A DNA stretch of 64,000 nt from Thalassolituus oleivorans MIL-1 (GTDB lineage: Bacteria > Pseudomonadota > Gammaproteobacteria > Pseudomonadales > Oceanobacteraceae). The notes under the pieces were generated by a model. The model was given only the letters and a program-made list of their open reading frames with translations. It did no database searches and was not told the origin of the DNA. A program made the translations under genes and the position numbers. This document shows positions 32,021 to 45,281 of this stretch, one piece after another. The stretch spans positions 2,773,501 through 2,837,500 of the forward strand of contig NC_020888.1 of NCBI RefSeq assembly GCF_000355675.1, given 5' to 3'. How positions within the stretch are numbered: position 1 is the first letter of the stretch; each line of letters starts with the position of its first letter.

Positions 32021-32929
32021 TTATAAAGAATTTAAAAAACCTAAACTCACAGCGGTTGCACTGGCACGGTTCTCGACGCCCAACTTAGGAAATATTTGCT
32101 CTAAATGCTTATTCACTGTGCGTGGGCTCATGGCTAAAATCTGCGCAATATCACGATTGGTTTTGCCACGCGATAACCACATCAACACTTCGGCTTCGCG
32201 TTCAGTTAATAAAAACTTCTGGCGCAATTCAGCTTGTAATACATTGTCATCGTCGTTAATTAATCGTAATAAATATTCAGCAGGCGACGGTCGGCCTAAA
32301 TAGCGAACTTGCAGCGAATGCGCTCCCAGCTCTAATTTACTATGACTATTACGCTCGGGTGCTCTTGCTAACCAAGGTGCTATATCGCTGCGAATTAACG
32401 TTTCTAGTTCACTCTCTGAGCTCCCGAGCGTTTGTAATAACTCTCGGGTTTTTACCGTACTCCAGAGCATTTCCCCGTGAATATTACAAGCAAAGGCTGG
32501 TTGCCCCATTTCATCCAGAGCGCTACGTGCACTGCGTGTTTTACGCGCATTACTCAAATGCACATGCACGCGAGCTAACAGCTCATCTATGTTCACGGGC
32601 TTAGTAATATAATCGACACCACCTACTTCTAAGCCACGCAAGACATGCTCACTATCGCTCAAGCCTGTCATAAAAATCACAGGGATATCGTGCAATTCAT
32701 TGCGTTTTTTTAATGTTTCACAAGCCGTAAAGCCATCCATCGTTGGCATAATGGCATCCAACAAAATTAGGTCTGGTATCATACGTTCGGTAATACTCAG
32801 CGCCTGAGTACCATCCATCGCGAGTAATACTGTGTATCCCGCAGACGTCAGCGCTTCGTTCATCATAGCGAGAGATTCTGCTGCATCATCCGCAACCAGC
32901 ACGATTCCTTTAGATTCAGGCCTGATCAC
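32021..32929 (-). CDS. LuxR/FixJ-type response regulator
   Basis: The frame is open to 32983, but the GTG at 32929 has AAGGTG 8 bases upstream and overlaps the kinase stop by 14 bases, so I choose it; the product is 302 residues. A receiver domain has the acceptor Asp 58 (PDLILLDAIMPTMDG). A middle region near residues 140-230 resembles a PAS-like linker. The C-terminal LuxR helix-turn-helix is LTEREAEVLMWLSRGKTNRDIAQ followed by SPRTVNKHLEQIF. It is co-translated with the transporter-kinase upstream. It probably activates the divergent amide operon. Confidence 0.9.
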   Translation of the reverse strand: MIRPESKGIVLVADDAAESLAMMNEALTSAGYTVLLAMDGTQALSITERMIPDLILLDAIMPTMDGFTACETLKKRNELHDIPVIFMTGLSDSEHVLRGLEVGGVDYITKPVNIDELLARVHVHLSNARKTRSARSALDEMGQPAFACNIHGEMLWSTVKTRELLQTLGSSESELETLIRSDIAPWLARAPERNSHSKLELGAHSLQVRYLGRPSPAEYLLRLINDDDNVLQAELRQKFLLTEREAEVLMWLSRGKTNRDIAQILAMSPRTVNKHLEQIFPKLGVENRASATAVSLGFLNSL

Positions 32930-35900
32930 GGGATAACACCTTTTGGTTAGTAGAAATGATGGTCGCAAACTGGTACGACGCAAGGTAGCGTTTCATTTGC
33001 TGGACAAAAACTGGGTGCTCTCCCGAGCTTTCAATGCGCACTAAAATCTTCTCCACGCCATCAACATAACCCAATTCTGCCATCGCGATTAATTCGCGCG
33101 CATCGGCATGACTAATATCAATAATCTCGGCATCTGCAGTCTTTACTTCATTAACGGGTACATCATCTTTATAAATCCACTGTAAGGACAACGCTGCAGC
33201 CAGTTTATCGAGCAATACCTGATCACGAATCGGTTTAATTAAATAATCGTCATTTAAACGCTCGACATTATCTGTGCCGTTTTGTCTCTGATTGTGCTCG
33301 TGGCTTTCTTCTGCATCCGCAGACGCCATAATAATAGGTGCGGTAATATTTCTGTGGCGCAATTCTTTGACTAGCTCCCAACCCGTCATCTCGGGCATAG
33401 AAATATCGAGGAAGAATAGATCGACCGATACAGTATCAATCGCCTCTAAACAGGCGAAGGCGTTGGTTGCTTCAAGCACTATAAAGCCAAGCGGTGATAA
33501 AATTTCACTAATTAACCCCCGATGCGATGCATCATCGTCGACAACCATGACGGTGCGCTGCGGACCATGATAAGAATCTATCTCTCGTACCTGAGTTGTC
33601 CGCTGCAAAGGCATAGAAACACTCGATAACATGAGCGACAGCTTAAAACGACTCCCCTGCCCTGGATCACTTTTTAGTGTGATTTCGCCACCCATAATAT
33701 CGGTTAACAATTTACTGATGGTTAAACCTAGGCCAGTACCGGGCATTTGCGGTTGTCCTGCTTTGCGAATACGTTCAAATGGCTGAAATATTCGCTCCAT
33801 TTCTTTAGAGTCTATCCCGACCCCCGTATCCTCAACAGAGAATTCGGCGACTTGGCTACGATAGCGCACAGATAAAGTTACCGATCCGCTATGAGTAAAC
33901 TTAACCGCATTGGATAATAAATTAATCAGAATTTGGCGTAGATGCTTCTCGTCTGTCGTGACCACAGCCGGCAGATGCGGCGATGGTCGATAATAAAAAG
34001 CGATACCTTTATTCTCGGCTTGTAGCGAAAACATATCCACCAGTTCTTGCAACATACTACGGATAGCCACTTCTTCGCGCCGGATCTCCAATCGTCCTGC
34101 TTCAATACGAGATATATCGAGCAAGCCTTCGATCAAATCCGCTAAATGCTCACCACTGCGACGAACGAGTTTCACTTTGCTTAGCTGAGAAGTATCAAGG
34201 TTTTTGTCTTTTTCTAGTAACTGCGCATACCCTAAAATCGAATTCAATGGGCTGCGTAATTCATGACTAATACCGCCTAAATATCGGCTTTTAGCACGGT
34301 TAGCCGCCTCTGCTAAGTCTTTGGCATCCTGTAAGGCTCGATCCGTTGCCTCATGCGCACTGATTTCTTGAGTGAGTAATTCGGTTTGTCGCATGGATTC
34401 ATCTAACGCAAATTGCCGACTTTCATTCGCTAATACAAATAACCAAATCAATACGCCAATAATAATGAGTAACAGAAAATACACTTGCACTAGCGTTGTG
34501 CCGACCATAGATTGCACAGCATCCGCAGTAGGCACCTGGAGATACACCAGCCAAAACAGTACGGCGACAGTAAAAGCAATGATGCTAAGAAAACCACTGA
34601 ACTGCATTAAGCGAGGATTCATACGCCGGACTAACCAGACAGGTAATACTGTTTCGAGCAAAGATTGTAGTTGATCACCAAGACGTGCCTTTTCTTTGCA
34701 CTGATCATGACAGCGAGCTTCTAAGGAACAGCAAAGCGAGCAAATATGACCGCCATAAGCAGGGCACTGCGCAATATCTTCAAGATCAAAGGTGTTTTCA
34801 CAGACGACACACTCAGTCAGCATCGAGTGCGGATTAACCGGAACGATAGGTATAATTTCACGCGCAAGATAGAAGCGTCCTTTGGTCACGAACGCAATAA
34901 TAGGCGCGGTAACAAACGCAGTTAGCAAGGCAACATACGGCGCCATGGCCTGTGCCTCCGGACCAACAACTCCGACATAGCAAATAATACCGAGTAATGA
35001 AGCCAAGATCATAGCGCCACAACCAACGGGGTTAACGTCGTATAAGTAGGCGCGCTTGAACTCTATGTGTTTCGGACTCAGCCCCAATGGTTTGTTAATC
35101 ACTAAATCTGCGACCAGTGCTCCAACCCAAGCCACGGCCACATTGGCATAGATACCAAGGATATGGACGAGTGATTCATAGACACCCAGCACCATAAGCA
35201 ACAAGGCAATCATGACGTTAAACACCAGCCATACTACCCGCCCGGGATGACTGTGCGTTAAGCGCGAAAAGAAGTTAGACCACGCAATAGAGCCAGCATA
35301 GGCATTAGTTACGTTAATCTTGACCTGACAAAGAATCACAAAAACACCCGTAACCGCCATCACGACCATGGGTGAATCAAACAAATATCCAAATGCGACC
35401 CGATATATTTGCGTAGGGTCACTGGCATCACTGACGTTCAAACCGTGACTCAACGCCAGCACGGCTAAAAAGGAACCGCCGAGTAATTTAATAAAACCAA
35501 CAACAATCCAGCCTGGCCCTGCGCCCATTAGCGCAGTCCACCAACGTAACTTATGCTTTTTATCGGGTTCTGGTAAAAACCGAAGAAAATCGACCTGCTC
35601 ACCGATTTGCGCGATTAAGGAAAAAATAACGGCCGATGCAGCACCAAAAAAGACCAAATTAAAGCCACCGCTACCAATTGGTGCGCTTTCAGTTACTCGT
35701 TCGATCCCAGTAAATTGCACCCACGTCAGAGTAGCTGACCACTCATGCCACAGGATAAATACAAATGGGGCTAACTGCAGAACCAACCAAATTGGCTGAG
35801 TCCACAATTGGAAACGGCTGATTAAAGTAATGCCGTGCGTTACCAAAGGAATGACAATAATGGCACTGAGTAAATAGCCAAACATCAATGGCAGACCAAA

Positions 35901-36329
35901 CAGAATATCCAATGCGGAGGCCATGATGGCCGATTCAAGTGCGAAGAAGATGAAAGTAAATGATGCGTAGATCAGTGACGTAATGGTCGAGCCGATATAA
36001 CCAAAACCAGCTCCACGGCTAAGTAAATCAATATCAACGCCGTATTTAGCCGCGTAGTAGCTGATTGGAATAGCCGTTAAGAAAATAACTAAAGAGACTG
36101 CCATAAAGGCATAAAACGCATTATCGAAACCATACAGTAAGGTTACCGTAGCTCCGATTGCCTCTAAGGCTAAAAATGAAATAGCACCTAACGCCGTATT
36201 CGATACCCGAGCTGCCGACCAGCGTCGCGCACTTTTAGCGGTAAAGCGTAATGCAAAATCTTCGAGAGTCTGATTCGCGACCCAACGATTATAACTTCGT
36301 CGAGCCTTAAAGACCTGTTGATCGCTCAT
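32916..36329 (-). CDS. Hybrid sensor kinase with NCS1 transporter domain
   Basis: The 1137-residue protein (ATG at 36329; another ATG at 36362) begins with an entire NCS1-type nucleobase/cation symporter domain, residues about 25-480, with about 12 helices. A cysteine cluster follows at 506-544 (CVVC, QC, HICSLCC, RCHDQC), probably zinc-binding. Then come two helices near 570-620, a coiled coil, the His domain with ISHELRSPLN (His 689), the ATPase domain (GTGLGLTISK) and a receiver domain with Asp 975 (LDISMPEM). A C-terminal region of about 80 residues is unassigned. It probably senses a transported or bound amide or nucleobase. Its divergent neighbour is the amide-import operon. Confidence 0.9.
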   Translation of the reverse strand: MSDQQVFKARRSYNRWVANQTLEDFALRFTAKSARRWSAARVSNTALGAISFLALEAIGATVTLLYGFDNAFYAFMAVSLVIFLTAIPISYYAAKYGVDIDLLSRGAGFGYIGSTITSLIYASFTFIFFALESAIMASALDILFGLPLMFGYLLSAIIVIPLVTHGITLISRFQLWTQPIWLVLQLAPFVFILWHEWSATLTWVQFTGIERVTESAPIGSGGFNLVFFGAASAVIFSLIAQIGEQVDFLRFLPEPDKKHKLRWWTALMGAGPGWIVVGFIKLLGGSFLAVLALSHGLNVSDASDPTQIYRVAFGYLFDSPMVVMAVTGVFVILCQVKINVTNAYAGSIAWSNFFSRLTHSHPGRVVWLVFNVMIALLLMVLGVYESLVHILGIYANVAVAWVGALVADLVINKPLGLSPKHIEFKRAYLYDVNPVGCGAMILASLLGIICYVGVVGPEAQAMAPYVALLTAFVTAPIIAFVTKGRFYLAREIIPIVPVNPHSMLTECVVCENTFDLEDIAQCPAYGGHICSLCCSLEARCHDQCKEKARLGDQLQSLLETVLPVWLVRRMNPRLMQFSGFLSIIAFTVAVLFWLVYLQVPTADAVQSMVGTTLVQVYFLLLIIIGVLIWLFVLANESRQFALDESMRQTELLTQEISAHEATDRALQDAKDLAEAANRAKSRYLGGISHELRSPLNSILGYAQLLEKDKNLDTSQLSKVKLVRRSGEHLADLIEGLLDISRIEAGRLEIRREEVAIRSMLQELVDMFSLQAENKGIAFYYRPSPHLPAVVTTDEKHLRQILINLLSNAVKFTHSGSVTLSVRYRSQVAEFSVEDTGVGIDSKEMERIFQPFERIRKAGQPQMPGTGLGLTISKLLTDIMGGEITLKSDPGQGSRFKLSLMLSSVSMPLQRTTQVREIDSYHGPQRTVMVVDDDASHRGLISEILSPLGFIVLEATNAFACLEAIDTVSVDLFFLDISMPEMTGWELVKELRHRNITAPIIMASADAEESHEHNQRQNGTDNVERLNDDYLIKPIRDQVLLDKLAAALSLQWIYKDDVPVNEVKTADAEIIDISHADARELIAMAELGYVDGVEKILVRIESSGEHPVFVQQMKRYLASYQFATIISTNQKVLSRDQA

Positions 36330-36451
36330 TGTAGAACATGCCCCTAGCTGCAAATGTAACATTTACTTCACAGCCGTTATTTTTGGAATGCTGTCCTTGC
36401 AATGCCTTATAGTTTTGACCCGCGAGAACAACTTCTATCAATCGCACGCCC

Positions 36452-36498
36452 ATGCGTCAAGACAGTAATCACATCCTGTGCCAACCACTATGCGTTAA
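36452..36498 (+). promoter_or_regulatory. Spaced ATGCGTYAA repeats before the amide operon
   Basis: ATGCGTCAA (36452-36460) and ATGCGTTAA (36490-36498) lie 38 bases apart between the kinase and fmdD starts. The second is followed by TGACGTAT, an imperfect mirror. They are candidates for the adjacent LuxR-type regulator. This is pattern only. Confidence 0.3.
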
Positions 36499-36603
36499 AT
36501 GACGTATGCCTATGGTGCGAATAGCGAATTCTTTGCTTTCGTGACTTTCTGCATTCTAACGGTGTTCCCATTCCGAACCCACAAACGTCAGAGAGGCTAC
36601 ACC

Positions 36604-37857
36604 ATGCGCTCAAAAACGCTTAACCCTACCAGCGGTGTTCGTCGCCGTACCTTACTTAAAAGTTTACTCGCCATTCCTGCGGCCGTGATGTTGGCAAACG
36701 CCAACTTTGCCAATGCTGATATGGTCAACACCACAGGCTTAGCCGTTACCGACGACACGGTAACTGTGGGTATCCTGCACTCAGTGACAGGTACTATGGC
36801 CATCAGTGAGACAGGTTCTGTACAAGCTGAGAAATTAGCGATTAAACAGATCAATGCCATGGGTGGTGTATTAGGTCGTAAGATCGAGTATATCCAAGAA
36901 GACGGCGCTAGCGATTGGCCAACCTTCGCTGAAAAAGCCAAAAAATTATTGGTGAGCGATAAAGTTGCAGCCATCATGGGTTGCTGGACATCAGCATCAC
37001 GTAAAGCTGTTTTACCAGTAATGGAACAGTACAACGGTATGTTGTTCTACCCTACCTTCTATGAAGGCTTGGAGCAGTCTCCTAACGTTATTTACACTGG
37101 CCAAGAAGCTACTCAGCAGATCCTTGAAGGTATCGACTGGGCATCACGTGTTAAAGGTGCAAAATCATTCTACCTACTAGGTTCAGATTACATTTGGCCA
37201 CGTACATCTAACAAGATCGCGCGCAAGCACATCGAAAAATTGGGTCTTAAAACGGTTGGCGAAGAGTACTACCCATTAGGCCACACTCAGTTCAACTCTG
37301 TTATCAACAAAATCAAACTGAAAAAGCCTGATGTTGTATTCATCTCAGTCGTTGGTGGTTCTAACGTTGCGTTCTACAAGCAGCTAAAAGCCGCTGGTAT
37401 TGAAATGGGCAAAGAAAAGCCATTATTCCTAACCATCTCAGTAACTGAAGATGAAATCTTGGGTATCGGTGGCGAAAACATCGAAGGCATCTATGCCTCT
37501 ATGAAGTACTTCCAAAGCCTGCCTAACGAAAACAACAAAAAATTCGTTGCGGCATTTAAAGAAGAGTATGGCGACGACATCGTTATCGGTGACGTAACTC
37601 AAGCAGCCTACCTTGGCCCTTGGATCTGGAAAGCAGCGGTTGAAAAAGCCGGTTCCTTCGATATTGATAAAATCAAAGAAACCTTGCCAGGTATCGAAAT
37701 CACAGCAGCTCCTGAAGGCTACGTTAAAGTGCATGAAAACCATCACTTGTGGTCTAAAACACGCATCGGTCATGCAAAGTTAGACGGCCAATATGACGTA
37801 GTTTATGAAAGCCCAGAGCTAATTGAACCTAACCCATTCCCTGCCGGATACCAGTAA
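36604..37857 (+). CDS. fmdD: Amide/urea ABC transporter substrate-binding protein, FmdD/UrtA-like
   Basis: The 417-residue protein starts at the ATG at 36604 with GAGAGG upstream. It opens with a twin-arginine-type signal (SGVRRRTLLKSLLAIPAAVMLANANFANA), unusual for a binding protein but seen in this family. The mature part is a leucine-binding-protein-like periplasmic fold: VTVGILHSVTGTMAISE, MGGVLGRKIEYIQEDGASDW and GCWTSASRKAVLPVMEQ. UrtA binds urea and FmdD short amides; the amidase genes downstream favour amides. It opens the nine-gene operon and is followed by a 9-bp hairpin. Confidence 0.92.
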   Translation: MRSKTLNPTSGVRRRTLLKSLLAIPAAVMLANANFANADMVNTTGLAVTDDTVTVGILHSVTGTMAISETGSVQAEKLAIKQINAMGGVLGRKIEYIQEDGASDWPTFAEKAKKLLVSDKVAAIMGCWTSASRKAVLPVMEQYNGMLFYPTFYEGLEQSPNVIYTGQEATQQILEGIDWASRVKGAKSFYLLGSDYIWPRTSNKIARKHIEKLGLKTVGEEYYPLGHTQFNSVINKIKLKKPDVVFISVVGGSNVAFYKQLKAAGIEMGKEKPLFLTISVTEDEILGIGGENIEGIYASMKYFQSLPNENNKKFVAAFKEEYGDDIVIGDVTQAAYLGPWIWKAAVEKAGSFDIDKIKETLPGIEITAAPEGYVKVHENHHLWSKTRIGHAKLDGQYDVVYESPELIEPNPFPAGYQ

Positions 37858-37930: not shown

Positions 37931-38857
37931 ATGTTTGCTGAATATAGCGCAGCCGAACTGACCTCCATCTTTGCTATGCAAGGATTTGCCGGTCTAATTT
38001 TATTCTCAGTTTTTGTTTTGATGGCACTCGGTCTGGCGATTATTTTCGGCCAAATGGGTGTTATTAATATGGCTCACGGCGAATTTATGATTCTCGGAGC
38101 TTACGTTACCTACTTAACCTCAAATGTATTCGCTAATTACCTGCCAGGTATTTACGAAGCTTATTTCTTTGTCGCCATGATAATAGCGTTTTTTGTCACG
38201 GGGGCACTCGGGGCCTTTGTCGAATGGGCGATGATTCGCCACCTGTACAAGCGTCCTCTCGATACTCTATTAGCAACTTGGGGCCTAAGCCTGATCATGC
38301 AGCAACTTTACCGTACCATTTTCGGCGCGCGTGAAGTAGGTGTTGTACTACCCGATTGGCTGATGGGTTCTTATCAAGTTACCGACATGATCGAAGTGCC
38401 TATTAACGGTATTTTCGTGATGATTTTAACCATCGTTATTTCCACTGGTGTGTGGTTAATGATGCAAAAGTCGCGTCTAGGCAAACAAACCCGCGCAGTA
38501 GTACAAAATCGTCCGATGGCTGCTGCAGTTGGTATTGATACCGGCCGTGTCGATCGTCTGACATTTGCCCTTGGTTGCGGTATCGCTGGCATTGCCGGAT
38601 CTGCTTTCACTATGGTGGGGTCTACCGGTCCAACCTCTGGCCAGCTTTATATTGTTGATACTTTCCTTGTCGTTGTATTCGGCGGCGCGACTAGCCTACT
38701 CGGAACTATCGCCTCTGCGTTCACCATCTCTCAAGCTCAATCGACAATGGAATTCTTCTTAAGTGGTTCGATGGCCAAAGTATTAACACTACTGACGGTA
38801 GTGATAATTCTGATGCTTCGCCCTGAAGGCCTATTCTCACTCAAGATTCGCCGCTAA
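37931..38857 (+). CDS. fmdE: Amide/urea ABC transporter permease, FmdE/UrtB-like
   Basis: The 308-residue inner-membrane protein has about eight helices and the LivH/UrtB pattern: [28 protein letters not shown] near residue 40, [32 protein letters not shown], the cytoplasmic coupling loop, and [12 protein letters not shown]. It forms half of the channel with the next gene product. GGGAG precedes the ATG. Gene order is identical to urtABCDE clusters; the symbol follows the neighbouring formamidase genes and is therefore inferential. Confidence 0.92.
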
Positions 38858-38870
38858 GGAGTCGTACATT

Positions 38871-40055
38871 ATGTTAACCAAAGCTCGCGATTTTTTAATG
38901 AAAGGTGACATCACTCACCTGATTATTCTGGCAGCGATTATCTTTGTAATCATGCCGCTAACAATGGATATCTTTCGCCTCAATCTAGTAGGTAAATACC
39001 TTACTTACGCTTTTGTGGCTTTAGGATTAGTACTGTGCTGGGGTTATGGCGGCGTACTCAGTTTAGGCCAAGGAGTATTTTTCGGTTTAGGTGGCTATTG
39101 CATGGCCATGTATTTAAAACTTCAGGCATCCACTCCTGAATTAACCGCAATCCAATCGACTCCGGGCATACCCGATTTTATGGATTGGAACCAAATAACC
39201 GAACTACCTTGGTTTTGGGAACCATTCCATAGCTTTGCCTTTACTGTACTTGCCGTATTTATTATCCCTGCCATATTCGCTTACATCATTGGCGTTGCCA
39301 TGTTTAAGCGTCGCGTAGGTGGTGTTTACTTCGCCATTATTACCCAAGCAGTAGCCGCCATTTTGACCATTCTTATTATCGGTCAACAAGGTTACACCGG
39401 AGGTGTGAACGGCATTACCGACTTACGTACCTTAAATGGCTGGGATATTCGTACCGATGAAGCCAAGTATGTTTTGTACTTCATCAACGGCTTGTTATTG
39501 TTCGGCGCTATTTTCGCATCGCGTTATGTTGTGAAAAGCAAATTAGGTCGCTTACTTGTCGCTATGCGCGAACGTGAAGACCGTGTGCGCTTCTCTGGAT
39601 ACGACGTATCTAACTTTAAGATTTTCATCTTCTGTTTAGCAGCAGCGATCTCGGCTGTTGGCGGCGCGATGTTCACTTTACAAGTGGGCTTTATGTCGCC
39701 TTCTTTCGTCGGCATCGTGCCCTCTATTGAGATGGTGATTTTCTGTGCTGTTGGCGGTCGTCTATCAATATTAGGCGCTATTTACGGAACATTAATCGTT
39801 AACTTCGCCAAAACAACCTTCTCAGAAAGCTTCCCAGAACTTTGGCTATTCGCCATGGGCGCACTCTTCATTGGTGTGGTAATGGCGTTCCCGAACGGTA
39901 TTGCTGGTGTATATCAAAGCCATATTTCTCCATGGCTTGCGAAGAAGTTTGGTAGCACGCCAAAAGATGAAGAAACTCCAACTATGGCGACTAAAAAGCA
40001 CTCTGTTGAATCCAATGAAGCCCAAGTAAAGGAGCCTAGCCATGCTGGAAACTAA
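38871..40055 (+). CDS. Amide/urea ABC transporter permease, UrtC-like
   Basis: The 394-residue protein is the LivM/UrtC-type partner permease with about ten helices. [28 protein letters not shown] and [29 protein letters not shown] are characteristic, as is the typical periplasmic insertion between them. A hydrophilic tail of about 40 residues follows the last helix. GGAG lies 8 bases before the ATG. The end overlaps the next ATPase gene by 14 bases, so translation is coupled. Confidence 0.92.
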
Positions 40056-40806
40056 TAAGCATATAGAGCAAAAAGATTTCGTGCTCAGTATTGAAGGGCT
40101 AACCGTTTCGTTTGACGGATTCAAAGCAGTTAACGATTTATCGCTTTACGTCGAAGAACAAGAAATTCGCGTCATTATCGGCCCTAATGGTGCCGGTAAA
40201 ACAACCGTACTCGATTTAATTTGTGGTCGTACTAAGGCGACTGAAGGATCAATTAAATTCAAAGGCAAAGAATTAACCAAGCTCAATGAACACCAAATTG
40301 TTCATGCGGGTGTTGGTCGTAAATTTCAAAACCCTTCGATTTATGAAGATTTGACCGTCTTTGAAAACCTTGAGCTATCTTTCCCTCGCGGTCGCAATGT
40401 TTGGGGAGCCTTGTTCTTCAAACGAGACCAAGAAGTAAAGGATAAAGTAAAAGAAATTGCCGAGATGATTTTTCTCGGCGACAAATTAAATATGCAAGCC
40501 GACCTACTAAGTCACGGGCAAAAACAATGGTTAGAAATCGGTATGTTGTTAATTCAGGATCCTGAATTACTCATGCTCGATGAGCCTGTTGCTGGAATGT
40601 CAGTGTCCGAACGCAAACAAACAGCCGACTTATTACACCGTATAACTAAAGATCGTTCGGTACTGGTAATTGAACACGACATGCAATTTGTCGCGGACAT
40701 CGCCGACCGTGTAACCGTTTTGCATCAAGGCAAAGTTCTGTCGGAAGGTTCGATGGAACGCGTGCAAGCCGATCCAAAAGTCATTGAAGTTTATCTCGGC
40801 CATTGA
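40042..40806 (+). CDS. Amide/urea ABC transporter ATPase, FmdF/UrtD-like
   Basis: The 254-residue ATPase has Walker [13 protein letters not shown] (near residue 50), a signature [12 protein letters not shown] that deviates from LSGGQ as usual in UrtD/LivG, Walker [13 protein letters not shown] and the switch His in VIEHDMQF. It energises transport at the cytoplasmic face as a heterodimer with the next protein. The ATG has AAGGAG upstream and lies inside the end of the permease gene. Confidence 0.93.
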
Positions 40807-40816
40807 GGATAACCGT

Positions 40817-41506
40817 ATGTTTGAATTAGCAGATTATGGTGTGGCTTATGGCCAGAGTGACGTCATCAAAGATATGAACTTGACGTTAAAGCCAAAAGAA
40901 ATCATCGCGGTACTTGGCCGTAATGGCATGGGTAAAACCACCATGATGAAGTCAATGATTGGCATGATTCCGAGCAAAGCAGGCACGATTACCTTAAATG
41001 GCAACGACTTATCTGGCTTACAAAGCCATCAGCGTGTAGCCGCCGGCTTAGGTTTTGTGCCACAAGGTCGAATGATTTTTTCAACCTTAACGGTACAAGA
41101 GAATATCGAAACTGGCTTAACCGTTACCGGCAAATCCACCGTACCTGAAGACCTGTATGAGTTGTTTCCAGTACTGCTCGAAATGAAAGATCGTCGCGGC
41201 GGCAACCTTTCTGGTGGCCAACAGCAACAACTTGCTATCGCTCGCGCACTTGCGAGTAATCCGAGCGTACTACTACTGGATGAACCAACCGAGGGGATTC
41301 AGCCATCCATTATTAAAGAAATGGCACGCACGCTGAAGAAAATTCGCGATCAGCGCAACCTATCCATCTTAGTTTCGGAGCAAGTGCTAAGTTTTGCGCT
41401 CGATATTGCCGATCGGATTTTGGTTATCGAAAAAGGAAAAATTGTACACGACGTACCAATTGCCGAGGCTGACCAAGCCAGTATTGCTAAGTATTTATCG
41501 GTTTAA
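40817..41506 (+). CDS. Amide/urea ABC transporter ATPase, UrtE-like
   Basis: The 229-residue ATPase starts at the ATG at 40817, after GAGG; the longer frame overlaps the previous gene. Walker A GRNGMGKTTMMK, signature LSGGQQQQLAIARAL, Walker B VLLLDEPTEGIQ and FVPQGRMIFSTLTVQEN fit LivF/UrtE. It completes the five-component importer. Only 23 bases separate it from amiE, so transporter and enzyme genes share a transcript. Confidence 0.93.
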   Translation: MFELADYGVAYGQSDVIKDMNLTLKPKEIIAVLGRNGMGKTTMMKSMIGMIPSKAGTITLNGNDLSGLQSHQRVAAGLGFVPQGRMIFSTLTVQENIETGLTVTGKSTVPEDLYELFPVLLEMKDRRGGNLSGGQQQQLAIARALASNPSVLLLDEPTEGIQPSIIKEMARTLKKIRDQRNLSILVSEQVLSFALDIADRILVIEKGKIVHDVPIAEADQASIAKYLSV

Positions 41507-41529: not shown

Positions 41530-42576
41530 ATGAGACACGGTGATATTTCTAGTAGTCCGGATACCGTTGGTGTTGCAGTTGTTAACTACAAGATGCCACG
41601 CCTACATACCAAGGAAGAAGTATTAGCCAACGCTGCCAATATTGCCGACATGATTGTCGGTATCAAGCAGGGGTTGCCTGGCATGGACCTAATTGTATTT
41701 CCCGAATACAGCACCATGGGCATCATGTACGACCATGATGAAATGATGGCTACTGCGGCTACTATTCCGGGAGACGAAACCGCTATTTTTTCTGCCGCCT
41801 GTAAAAAGGCCAATACCTGGGGGATTTTTTCACTGACTGGCGAACGTCACGAAGAACACCCTCACAAAGCACCTTACAACACTCTAATTTTGATTAATAA
41901 CGAAGGTGAAATCGTTCAAAAATATCGTAAGTGCATACCTTGGTGCCCAATTGAAGGCTGGTATCCCGGTGATCGCACTTACGTGAGCGAAGGCCCTAAA
42001 GGCATGAAAATCAGCCTTATTATTTGCGACGATGGTAACTATCCTGAGATTTGGCGCGACTGTGCCATGCGCGGTGCCGAATTAATCGTTCGCTGCCAAG
42101 GCTATATGTACCCTGCCAAAGAGCAGCAAGTCATGATGGCGAAAACCATGGCATGGGCTAACAATTGCTATGTTGCGGTTGCTAATGCCACCGGTTTTGA
42201 TGGTGTTTATAGCTACTTTGGGCACTCTGCTTTAATAGGATTTGATGGTCGTACATTAGGAGAGTGTGGCGAAGAAGATATGGGCGTGCAATATGCTCAA
42301 CTTTCAGTTTCACAAATTCGTGACGCGCGCAAAAACGATCAATCGCAAAATCATTTATTCAAATTATTGCACCGCGGCTATAGCGGCGTTCACGCCTCCG
42401 GTGATGGTGATAAAGGCATCGCCGACTGCCCATTTGAGTTTTACCGCACTTGGGTAATGGATGCAGAAAAAGCCCAGCGCGACGTCGAAGCGATGACCCG
42501 TGACACCATTGGCGTAGCCGACTGTCCGGTCGGAAACCTACCCGTAAGCGAACGTGAACGGGAGGCCGGCGAGTAA
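41530..42576 (+). CDS. amiE: Aliphatic amidase
   Basis: The 348-residue enzyme aligns without gaps through most of its length with the classical Pseudomonas aliphatic amidase, starting MRHGDISSS. The nitrilase-fold triad is at the family positions: Glu 59 (VFPEYS), Lys 134 ([10 protein letters not shown]) and Cys 166 ([13 protein letters not shown]). It hydrolyses short amides such as acetamide, propionamide or acrylamide to acid and ammonia as a cytosolic homo-oligomer. GGAG precedes the ATG. Here it follows an ABC importer and precedes amiB and fmdA. amiC, amiR and amiS are not present. Confidence 0.97.
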
Positions 42577-42592
42577 TCGCCGGACGAGAGCC

Positions 42593-43666
42593 GTGGTATT
42601 TATCACCGATAAACTCGAACAAAATCGCCGTGCACAACCTTTGTGTACGTCGCGTTTTGTATTCGATCCTAGTGAGATCGAAGGCGCTCTGCGCGCTAGA
42701 ATTATCGGCCAAGATGAAACCATCACTCGCTTTAAGCGTCAGCTCAGCGTGGTTAAAGCAGGGCTGCAAGATGATCGTAAGCCACTATTAAGCACCCTAT
42801 TTTTAGGCTCGACAGGTGTGGGAAAAACGGAATTTGTCCGCACCGTCGCTAAAGCCATTCATGGTAATAGCGAGGCTTTTTGTCGCATTGATATGAATAC
42901 CCTATCGCAAAGCCATTACAGCGCAGCGATCACTGGTGCGCCCCCGGGTTATGTTGGTAGTAAAGAAAATTATTCATTATTTAATGAAGACCACATTGCA
43001 GGCACGAGTACCCGTCCCGGCATCGTTTTGTTCGATGAAATCGAGAAAGCAAGTGCCGAAGTGGTTCGTAGCTTAATGAACATATTGGATTCCGGTTCAC
43101 TCACCCTCGCATCCGGTCAGAAAACGCTGAAATTTAATAATACTTTGATTTTCATGACCAGTAATATTGGCGCGATAAAAACTAAGACGTTCATATCCAA
43201 AGCTCGACAAAGCTTTTCTCAGAAGTCTAGAAAGGCAACTTTTATTAGAGCGTTAGAGCGTCATTTTGATCCCGAATTTATCAATCGTATTGGCAGTGTT
43301 AATTGCTTTAACGATCTTAGCATGACATCCATTCCGGATATCATCGAAAACTTAGAAGCGGAACTTAATCAACGCTTAAAAGCCCGCAATATTGCTATCG
43401 AACTTGACCCATCTGCGCGCACCTTAGTGTGCTCTGCTGGGTTTAACAAACGCTATGGAGCTCGCGATATTCAACGACAGTTCCAAGCACTTGTATTAGA
43501 GCCACTCGCTCAATTTTTACTCAGCGCTGCGGATGATCAATGTCGATTTATCTTCGGTACTGCTACAGCCAATAAAATTACGTTTCAACCGACCTTACTC
43601 AACGAATTTTCACGTACGAGTAAACCAGTGGCCTCTCGGCCGTCACAGGAGAAGACCCATGACTGA
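42593..43666 (+). CDS. amiB: AmiB, Clp/HSP100-like AAA+ ATPase
   Basis: The 357-residue protein most likely starts at the GTG at 42593, after GAGAG, 16 bases past amiE; a GTG at 42554 would overlap amiE. It is a single AAA+ module of the ClpB-D2/ClpA type: Walker A GSTGVGKTEF (from residue 72), pore loop GYVG (119-122), Walker B VLFDEIEKA (Asp 148, Glu 149), sensor 1 MTSNIGA, Arg finger FDPEFINRIG and sensor 2 GARDIQ. The same position after amiE is held by AmiB in Pseudomonas, whose exact role is unsettled. An intact pore loop suggests protein threading or assembly of an amidase. Confidence 0.88.
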   Translation: MVFITDKLEQNRRAQPLCTSRFVFDPSEIEGALRARIIGQDETITRFKRQLSVVKAGLQDDRKPLLSTLFLGSTGVGKTEFVRTVAKAIHGNSEAFCRIDMNTLSQSHYSAAITGAPPGYVGSKENYSLFNEDHIAGTSTRPGIVLFDEIEKASAEVVRSLMNILDSGSLTLASGQKTLKFNNTLIFMTSNIGAIKTKTFISKARQSFSQKSRKATFIRALERHFDPEFINRIGSVNCFNDLSMTSIPDIIENLEAELNQRLKARNIAIELDPSARTLVCSAGFNKRYGARDIQRQFQALVLEPLAQFLLSAADDQCRFIFGTATANKITFQPTLLNEFSRTSKPVASRPSQEKTHD

Positions 43667-44891
43667 TACCATTATTAAAATCGATTTAAGTAAATCAGCG
43701 TACGATCACGATAATGTTCACAATCGCTGGCACCCTGACATTCCTATGGTTGCTAAGGTGAAACCCGGTGATGACTTTATCGTCGAATGCTTTGACTGGA
43801 CAGGCGGACAGATCAAGAACGACGACGACGCTTCTGACGTGCGTGATGTCGATTTATCTCAAGTGCACTTTTTATCTGGTCCTATTGCTGTTGAAGGCGC
43901 ACAGCCCGGTGATTTATTAGAAGTCGATATTTTAGACATCGGTGCATTTACCGAACAACAATGGGGCTTTAACGGCTTCTTTTCTAAAAAGAACGGCGGT
44001 GGATTTTTAGACGAACACTTCCCTGAAGCACAAAAATCCATTTGGGATTTCAACGGTATCTACACCAGTTCACGTCACGTACCGGGCGTTGAATTTGCTG
44101 GTATTTTACACCCAGGCCTAATCGGTTGCTTGCCATCACGCGATATGCTGGATAAGTGGAACACGCGTGAAAAAGAATTGTTCGACACTGATCCAGATCG
44201 TACGCCAACACTTGCTTGCTTGCCGTATGCACCGACAGCACACATGGGCCGCATGCAAGGCGACGATAAAGCTGCAGCAGCTGCTGAAGGTGCTCGTACC
44301 GTACCGCCACGCGAGCATGGTGGTAACTGCGATATTAAAGACCTAACCCGTGGCGCAAAAATCTACTTCCCAGTATATGTAGATGAAGCCGGTCTATCGG
44401 TTGGCGATTTACACTTTAGCCAAGGCGATGGCGAAATCACCTTCTGCGGTGCAATTGAAATGGCTGGCTGGATTCACATGCGTGTGAATTTAATTAAAGA
44501 CGGTATGGCTAAATACCAGGTTAAAAACCCAATCTTTAAGCCAAGCCCATTAGTACCTAAGTACGACGACTATTTAATCTTCGAAGGTATTTCTGTTGAC
44601 GAAAATGGCAAGCAGCACTTCTTAGATACCACCGTTGCGTATCGCCAAGCCTGTTTGAACGCCATTAACTACATGGAGCTATTCGGATTCTCGCGTGCTC
44701 AGGCTTACGCCATTATTGGTTGTGCACCGATACAAGGTCACATTAGCGGCGTGGTCGACGTACCGAACTCTTGTGCGACCTTATGGTTACCAACCGATAT
44801 CTTTAAATTCGATATTAAGCCTAACGCTAATGGCCCGACTAAATTCCTCGACGGCTCGGTCGATATTCCACTAGCGCCTGATTTGGATTAA
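43659..44891 (+). CDS. fmdA: Formamidase
   Basis: The 410-residue protein starts at the ATG at 43659, with AGGAG upstream, and overlaps amiB by 8 bases. It belongs to the FmdA/AmdA acetamidase-formamidase family, a beta-rich fold unrelated to AmiE. Visible segments include HNRWHPDIP, VKPGDDFIVECFDWTGGQI, HFLSGPIAVEGAQPGDLLEVDILD and HGGNCDIKDLTRGAKIYFPV. It splits formamide to formate and ammonia. Length is close to the 407 of Methylophilus FmdA. Two unrelated amidases in one operon point to a broad amide range, with AmiE for C2-C3 amides and FmdA for formamide. Confidence 0.96.
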   Translation: MTDTIIKIDLSKSAYDHDNVHNRWHPDIPMVAKVKPGDDFIVECFDWTGGQIKNDDDASDVRDVDLSQVHFLSGPIAVEGAQPGDLLEVDILDIGAFTEQQWGFNGFFSKKNGGGFLDEHFPEAQKSIWDFNGIYTSSRHVPGVEFAGILHPGLIGCLPSRDMLDKWNTREKELFDTDPDRTPTLACLPYAPTAHMGRMQGDDKAAAAAEGARTVPPREHGGNCDIKDLTRGAKIYFPVYVDEAGLSVGDLHFSQGDGEITFCGAIEMAGWIHMRVNLIKDGMAKYQVKNPIFKPSPLVPKYDDYLIFEGISVDENGKQHFLDTTVAYRQACLNAINYMELFGFSRAQAYAIIGCAPIQGHISGVVDVPNSCATLWLPTDIFKFDIKPNANGPTKFLDGSVDIPLAPDLD

Positions 44892-44906: not shown

Positions 44907-45281
44907 ATGCCTTTATACGATTATAAATGCACTCAGCATGGTGTTTTCCAAGAACTTGCGTCAATGGAACACCACGATCATCCGGCTAAATGCCCACAAT
45001 GTGCGCAGTTATCTGCGCGTGTTGTGATGATCCCACCGCATATTGCGGCCATGATTAAAGAGAAAAAAGAAGCCATGGAGCGTAATGAAAAAGCGCAACA
45101 TGAACCCGACTTCATGACCTCAACACAATTTCATGAACGGGAAAAAGAAAAGCAAGAGCGTGCCGCACACGGCAAACACAAAGGTTGTGGCTGCGCGCCG
45201 AAACGCCCGAGCAATTTATTGTGGACCGCTGATGGAAATAAAATGTTTCCGTCTATGCGCCCGTGGATGATAAGTCATTAA
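44907..45281 (+). CDS. fmdB: FmdB zinc-ribbon protein
   Basis: The 124-residue protein has the FmdB domain MPLYDYKCTQHGVF with a second pair CPQC at about residue 31, a zinc ribbon whose first pair is CxxHG rather than CxxCG. A charged, lysine/glutamate-rich helix and a tail with GCGC and SNLLWTADGNKMFPSMRPW follow. It is the last gene of the operon and ends at a UUCG-loop terminator. FmdB is called a regulator of formamidase, but its mechanism is unproven. Confidence 0.93.
   Translation: MPLYDYKCTQHGVFQELASMEHHDHPAKCPQCAQLSARVVMIPPHIAAMIKEKKEAMERNEKAQHEPDFMTSTQFHEREKEKQERAAHGKHKGCGCAPKRPSNLLWTADGNKMFPSMRPWMISH

Follow-up and report, generated by a model that had tools for sequence, protein, structure and literature searches.

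In SLC5/STAC kinases such as CbrA, CrbS/MxtR and RpuS, a LeuT-fold transporter is joined to a histidine kinase that controls nutrient genes, and CrbS is, in the available text of its descriptions, also a hybrid kinase. Ks-Amt5 likewise uses a transporter domain as a nitrogen receptor on a kinase, and the accessible parts of PMC5764959 and PMC8534201 report that it binds without efficient transport; 5TMR kinases carry a membrane domain sharing its fold with a transporter component (PMC11109136, available text). In this study, we found that a 64,000-nucleotide stretch of the Thalassolituus oleivorans MIL-1 genome (contig NC_020888.1, positions 2,773,501 to 2,837,500; hereafter the window) encodes a hybrid sensor kinase whose membrane part is homologous to NCS1 permeases and is followed by a cluster of eight cysteines, and that this protein belongs to a real, widespread and well-conserved kinase family. 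The gene is divergent from an amide-import operon, and it is quite probable that the kinase is a sensor of small amides (formamide or urea), derived from an NCS1-type transporter, which switches on its own uptake operon.

Unlike the SLC5/STAC kinases, the window kinase has an NCS1-like domain, carries eight cysteines and two helices in the place of STAC, and is found with formamide and urea operons. Ks-Amt5 differs from it by its Amt fold and ammonium, as against an NCS1-like fold and candidate amide ligands, and the 5TMR kinases by an S-component fold as against a LeuT/NCS1-like fold. CodB and Mhp1 share fold and profile homology with the window kinase, whereas Thr278/Thr279 of CodB read Lys/Ile and Q105/W108 read T/F in the kinase, which has a cysteine domain and a kinase in addition. 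With UrtA, AmiE, FmdA and FmdB, the operon resembles fmd/urt amide-urea operons; a gene cluster of this kind has been published for P. veronii Yu15 (PMC13209695), and E. guguanensis has a urtABCDE set with a hybrid kinase and a LuxR regulator (PMC13296017), whereas a transporter domain of the kinase is identified in the available text of neither. Our literature search found no described NCS1-type sensor kinase, albeit with subscription journals mostly outside its scope, so that an earlier description may exist, and a text search found NCS1 unmentioned in PMC13022988, PMC7918813, PMC8534201 and PMC11109136. Two other candidates were rejected, PA3271 as the P. aeruginosa counterpart because it is CrbS, and GrtK as a relative because it is of the PilS type.

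The NCS1-like module and its cysteine cluster

The kinase and the elements that accompany it are the following.
32021..32929, minus strand: response regulator, receiver and LuxR-type helix-turn-helix (Pfam domains; likely GTG start)
32916..36329, minus strand: hybrid sensor kinase, 1137 amino acids (open reading frame, Pfam, AlphaFold model, Foldseek, profile comparison)
34698..34811, minus strand: eight-cysteine cluster, residues 507-544 (cysteine conservation over 161 rows)
36488..36509, no strand (.): candidate operator dyad CTATGCGTTAAATGACGTATGC, consensus GTATACGTCAaATGACGTATAC (matrix scan of kinase-urtA intergenic regions)

The kinase frame (32916-36362, minus strand) is open over 1148 codons. 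We chose the start at 36329 (MSDQQ...), as given in a preliminary description of this DNA, and it agrees with where close homologues begin. From N to C terminus, the protein consists of an NCS1-like fold (about 24-482), the eight cysteines (507-544), a pair of further helices (about 572-645), a HisKA-HATPase unit, a receiver and a tail. Pfam matches over cut-off were HisKA at 690-756, HATPase_c at 803-911 and Response_reg at 938-1054 (numbering of the 1148-residue frame), with no match over cut-off in the first 680 residues and none in the C-terminal tail. Together with the adjoining response regulator gene, these domains make up a hybrid kinase with its regulator. The likely GTG start of the regulator lies inside the 3' end of the kinase gene, giving an overlap of 14 bases, and a relative of the regulator was present in the same locus in 78 of the best 80 of at least 596 relatives in named genomes and in 55 of 57 loci of the phylum sample.

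The membrane part is homologous to NCS1 permeases and lies outside the reach of Pfam. PF02133 was absent from the kinase in every Pfam scan, the loosest at E<=10, and from all 37 aligned family rows at E<=1, and the SSF (SLC5) and STAC domains were likewise absent from Pfam scans of the kinase and of the 37 rows. A search of PDB sequences with the kinase gave no meaningful match, and its family-profile version gave weak zinc-finger matches only. By profile-profile comparison, on the other hand, residues 24-449 matched a set of seven NCS1 permeases, E. coli CodB among them, with 98.8% probability (E 9e-17). The NCBIfam cytosine permease model PRK11017 matched 8 of the 37 rows at E<=0.01, a threshold other than that model's own cut-off (best 7.8e-10; the window protein was not among the eight). 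In the AlphaFold model of the kinase (pLDDT 80.6, pTM 0.84), Foldseek against the PDB ranked CodB (7qoa) and Mhp1 at the top, with a target-normalised TM score of 0.74-0.76 for CodB; over ranks 1-5, this score was 0.66-0.76 and the query-normalised one 0.49-0.50, which places the LeuT fold nearest to CodB and Mhp1. A bridge protein, L045 (in G163; here and below G marks genomes and L loci, and some genomes appear under both a name and a G handle), is 27% identical to the query (E 4.4e-5) and passes the PF02133 cut-off.

Eight residues, T125, E132, Q241, E244, Q245, Q335, K337 and N342, are invariant in 160 rows of the family alignment, which include near-copies. T125 and F128 align with CodB Q105 and W108 in both the MAFFT and the profile alignments; according to the available text of PMC9379551, these CodB residues serve cytosine, and T278-T279 serve Na+. 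At this Na2 site, Thr278/Thr279 are replaced by K337 (160/160 rows) and I338 (159/160) in the ungapped profile alignment, on which the equivalence rests because the MAFFT alignment has a 3-column gap there. The CbrA preprint, as far as its available text goes, states for CbrA K196 that a lysine at Na2 is a proton-coupled pattern. With a lysine at this position, Na+ coupling appears unlikely, and the module is probably Na+-independent. Because the PF02133 cut-off and the Na2-site hydroxyls both fail, we call the domain NCS1-like and not a member of NCS1. The single polypeptide of transporter-like domain, cysteine cluster, histidine kinase and receiver proposed earlier is thus borne out by Pfam, profile and structure, and its NCS1 label stands by profile comparison and structure and falls short at PF02133 and the Na2 site.

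The cysteines at 507, 510, 522, 530, 533, 534, 540 and 544 are present in 160 of 161 rows, the window's own among them, and the remaining row lacks the region altogether. Two histidines, which the preliminary description had counted into the cluster, occur in the window protein and are poorly kept (H528 in 10/160 rows, H541 in 78/160); for this low conservation, they were rejected as metal ligands. The cluster is absent from CodB, from L045 and from the NCS1 protein of locus L224, and copies of the family without a kinase retain all eight cysteines, which indicates that it came with the transporter-like module and not with the kinase. The modelled cysteine domain, confident in its middle only, consists of short strands and a helix. 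Its weak Foldseek matches were mostly double-zinc types (PHD, RING, LIM, FYVE), and a profile search of PDB sequences matched C2H2 fingers around the first CxxC (best E 0.00052). Zinc is the likely metal. That all eight cysteines are invariant, and that a related kinase of 618 residues at L277 lacks the transporter part and keeps a short cysteine-rich stretch, would suit a cluster that is itself the main input, sensing a metal (e.g. nickel for urease) or redox state, with the NCS1 part as a mere anchor. This is improbable, since the kinase-less copies assign the cluster to the transporter-like module and not to signalling alone, since the membrane residues T125, E132, Q241, E244 and K337 are just as invariant, and since the strongest run of positions specific to operon type, 403-406, lies in the tenth core helix and would fit ligand tuning.

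Amide and urea genes around the kinase family

The divergent operon of the window consists of the following genes.
36604..37857, plus strand: urtA-type substrate-binding protein of a urea/amide ATP-binding cassette importer (TIGR03407 over cut-off; start read from sequence)
37931..38857, plus strand: urtB-type permease (open reading frame; name from gene order and translation)
38871..40055, plus strand: urtC-type permease (open reading frame; name from gene order and translation)
40042..40806, plus strand: urtD-type ATPase (open reading frame; name from gene order and translation)
40817..41506, plus strand: urtE-type ATPase (open reading frame; name from gene order and translation)
41530..42576, plus strand: aliphatic amidase AmiE (NF009802 over cut-off)
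42554..43666, plus strand: ClpA/ClpB-D2-like AAA+ ATPase (PF07724, PF10431)
43659..44891, plus strand: formamidase FmdA (NF045496 over cut-off)
44907..45281, plus strand: FmdB-family zinc-ribbon protein, RPWMISH (NF053663, TIGR02605 over cut-off)

The amide-import operon reported earlier opposite the kinase is thus urtABCDE-amiE-AAA-fmdA-fmdB, with UrtA, AmiE, FmdA and FmdB over NCBIfam cut-offs. The single-ring AAA+ ATPase, which we take to resemble AmiB of the Pseudomonas amidase operon, has relatives in 12 of 80 loci (the best 80 of at least 596), all 12 with amiE. A urease alpha subunit gene lies elsewhere in the genome (C1:1030666-1031016), far from the window.

Own genome included, family matches were found in 24 of 44 genomes of the own family, in 17 of 274 of the class sample (where G163 is a plain NCS1 protein and G081 a partial match) and in 55 of 398 of the phylum sample, or 52 without three marginal matches: G498 (NCS1), G539 (a 94-residue fragment) and G590 (a remnant kinase). 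Among the at least 596 relatives in named genomes, the best 80 are mostly from Pseudomonadota, with two cyanobacteria. The 62 rows of the phylum search are the window, 57 examined places, another fragment of the G691 gene and the three marginal matches, which were left out of the neighbourhood and co-occurrence counts and treated as kinase-negative in the Fisher test, where relatedness is not removed. We labelled loci F for an FmdA match >150 bits, U for a urease match, f for a UrtA of the window's type and u for a UrtA of the other (urea) type, each anywhere within the fetched locus; the neighbourhood counts include relatives and are uncorrected for relatedness.

Of the 57 places in the phylum sample, 37 have fmdA (35 also a close urtA), 13 have urease, 4 have a urea-type urtA alone and 3 have neither; two of these three are short contigs and the third, L224, is a kinase-less NCS1 protein. 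Counted by kinase, 37 of 56 places are thus by fmdA, 17 by urease or a urea-type urtA, and 2 on short contigs. The best 80 of the at least 596 named relatives comprise 59 loci with fmdA, 10 with a close urtA only, 3 with urease, 3 with a urea-type urtA and 5 with none, the last including L092 and L105, both incomplete. Neighbourhoods were taken for part of the own-family kinases; the 20 own-family and class loci examined divide into 10 F, 6 U/u and 4 none (L226, L241 and L244 are at contig ends), and seven further loci into three with fmdA (L130, L131, L135), one with a close urtA (L137) and three with none (L132, L133, L136). Close to the L129 kinase are a relative of UrtA, a weaker one, and a relative of AmiE, and L193, labelled urease-type, has fmdA in the same genome about 12 kb from the kinase. 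None of 20 control windows of 20 kb, set by hand at round coordinates in the same kind of genomes, contained amide or urea genes.

The linkage also holds between genomes, a co-occurrence that had been asked about before. FmdA passed the cut-off in 40 of 398 phylum-sample genomes, 39 of which have the kinase, and the kinase is present in all 21 own-family genomes with an FmdA match (20 over cut-off, one a piece at a contig end). Conversely, the 13 phylum-sample kinase genomes without FmdA over cut-off comprise 12 with urea-type neighbours and one on a 4.8-kb contig, and the own-family ones, G016, G018 and G019, have a u locus, a Uu locus and one ended by the contig. Two kinase copies were examined in eight genomes, six of which (G462, G549, G681, G528, G015, G017) have one F and one U/u locus; for the second kinase of G292, the far side is not included. 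In a tree of 160 rows, from which L092 was left out, 12 changes account for the labels F, U and none, vs a mean of 38.6 in shuffles, which keep relatedness. Urea-type rows stand in separate groups (family f110 with G662 near Comamonadaceae, Aureimonas with family f211, and one or two gammaproteobacterial), and this tree indicates that the operon type was swapped repeatedly and separately along with the sensor type. A screen of 284 conserved positions for F/U specificity singled out G403-V406 as the strongest run of four. These residues belong to the tenth core helix of the model, and a run as strong arose in 6 of 2000 position shuffles, which leave relatedness uncorrected. This screen replaced an initial one dominated by variable columns, and the run is a lead for ligand specificity that would fit ligand tuning.

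The urtABCDE importer is the most constant neighbour of the kinase, and flux sensing by a kinase-transporter pair is known for BceS in the available text of PMC8534201. The kinase might thus read flux through, or contact with, UrtABCDE as BceS reads BceAB, which we regard as unlikely. No urt gene is seen with the fmdA and amiE of the linked G306 operon or at four loci that have urease only (L134, L204, L207, L223), no urtA is seen in G700 and G701, and such sensing would leave a full transporter-like domain superfluous. The earlier proposal that the kinase senses amides has strong comparative support in the neighbourhoods, the FmdA co-occurrence, the shared dyad and the kinase-less copies in amide operons, and it is to be widened to urea (17 of 56 places). 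The other ligand proposed there, a ring nucleobase whose breakdown yields amides or urea, is disfavoured and was set aside, since the CodB cytosine positions Q105/W108 read T/F and since no nucleobase-breakdown gene recurring across lineages was recognised among neighbours judged by eye, with no systematic annotation. A methylthioadenosine phosphorylase-like gene recurs in 8 of 80 loci (the best 80 of at least 596).

A candidate operator and the proposed circuit

The dyad upstream of urtA scored >=12 bits in 115 of 118 kinase-urtA intergenic regions (0.0 in shuffles) with a matrix built from the same regions. With a matrix from 20 other gammaproteobacterial loci, it was found in 60 of 98 held-out regions (0.2 in shuffles), a hold-out that is partly blind as the 20 training sites were picked by a seed word from a k-mer count over all loci. 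Urea-type loci have the dyad at >=15 bits in 16 of 29 cases. In ten of them (L212, L219, L213, L216, L225, L227-L231) it lies <=0.3 kb from urtA and 1.9-9.1 kb from the kinase start, and in L194, L197 and L112 it adjoins the start of the kinase gene, urtA being more distant. In G306, G700 and G701, it lies in the interval that separates the kinase gene from the kinase-less one. The best score in control windows (n=20) was 7.9 bits. The own genome has one exact site and eight with 3 mismatches (4 for a control pattern) and no second site within two mismatches, so the regulon of the regulator would probably be narrow. Control of the urt promoter by sigma-54 was unsupported by a site scan. Facing the kinase, sigma-54-like sites with <=1 mismatch occur in 9 of 118 intergenic regions vs 0.55 expected from reverse-direction shuffles, and the window has none.

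The sensor reading is built on the architecture, the fold, the invariant residues, the linkage at the level of neighbourhoods and genomes, and the conserved dyad; we infer the ligand, activation as the direction of control, the metal, the absence of Na+ coupling and the binding of the regulator to the dyad. In the most likely scenario, the NCS1-like domain would bind formamide, or urea in other members, probably in a pocket equivalent to the cytosine site of CodB. The ligand-driven rearrangement would then pass through the cytosolic eight-cysteine domain, which most likely acts as a structural switch of treble-clef-like build with two zinc ions, and through the last two helices to the kinase, and the phosphate would be handed to the LuxR-type response regulator. 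The regulator may bind the TACGTCA-N2-TGACGTA dyad upstream of urtA and activate uptake and hydrolysis, that is, urtABCDE-amiE-fmdA here and the urea urtABCDE and urease elsewhere.

Several observations weigh against this scenario. Six full-length kinase places lack fmdA, urease and a close urt gene (L125, L128, L242 and L132, L133, L136, of which L132 and L133 are two copies in one genome, G180), and at L276 (G702) the sole such neighbour is an intermediate relative of UrtA (44-46%). G056 has fmdA and no kinase, the fetched fmdA stretch being without other query genes, and two of the two-copy genomes deviate, G396 with two F loci and G180 with neither type. The matrix scan found no good dyad in 13 of 29 urea-type loci, namely a clade of seven (L193, L202, L205, L207, L134, L204, L223) and six others (L104, L118, L199, L203, L200, L115), nor in the F-type non-hybrid kinase loci L220 and L221 and the cyanobacterial L125 and L129. 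The cysteine domain resembles known zinc folds weakly (best Foldseek E 0.28). A hybrid kinase also normally requires a phosphotransfer step.

The six full-length places are also what would be expected if the neighbourhood were an ancestral accident and the kinase controlled other genes. We regard this as very improbable, since operon type was apparently swapped repeatedly and separately with sensor type, and since the dyad sits at the target promoter even far from the kinase. Homologues without amide genes, which would speak against the linkage, were found only as urea genes replacing the amide genes, apart from these six places.

Kinase-less copies and the biology of the family

The NCS1-like/eight-cysteine module occurs in hybrid kinases, in non-hybrid kinases (L220, L125) and without a kinase. 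G306, G700 and G701 have a kinase-less copy of the 559-residue type divergent from the kinase. Behind it come fmdA and amiE in all three genomes, together with an fmdB-like gene in G306; G700 has a further kinase-less copy before a PF01425 amidase, without the dyad. The kinase-less copies at L130:9767-11446 and L273:9902-11548 have the eight-cysteine cluster and lie ahead of fmdA or an amidase. Because these copies precede amide genes, and given the context of L224 described below, we infer that the ancestral use of the module would be amide transport. It is possible, somewhat short of probable, that the NCS1-like and eight-cysteine parts form a self-standing family of proton-coupled amide permeases in which a metal-bound gate lies in the cytosol and changes in the tenth transmembrane helix (TM10) moved the specificity several times between formamide and urea, and that this family would have three uses: as the formamide/amide importer of the operon (kinase-less, in the usual place of urtABCDE), as the receptor of a hybrid kinase and as the receptor of a non-hybrid kinase.

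Two further relatives may be mentioned. At L224:9349-14381, a more distant NCS1 permease (PF02133) lies by a nitrilase-family CN-hydrolase, an AmiC-like binding protein and an AmiR-type regulator, and this permease may possibly be an amide or nitrile transporter. The reduced kinase at L277:9357-11210 has a dyad just upstream, and an iron alcohol dehydrogenase gene adjoins it.

In summary, the transporter-derived sensor kinases described in the literature consulted fall into few classes (SLC5/STAC, Amt and S-component fold), and the NCS1-like class, unseen by Pfam, adds one. The family is already tied to few candidate ligands and to a candidate operator, and nature offers it as a series of kinase-less, formamide-type and urea-type forms. 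With such tiny and cheap ligands, the transceptor question, whether signalling proceeds by binding or by transport, becomes testable, and the kinase is a candidate inducer system for the bacterial use of formamide and urea.

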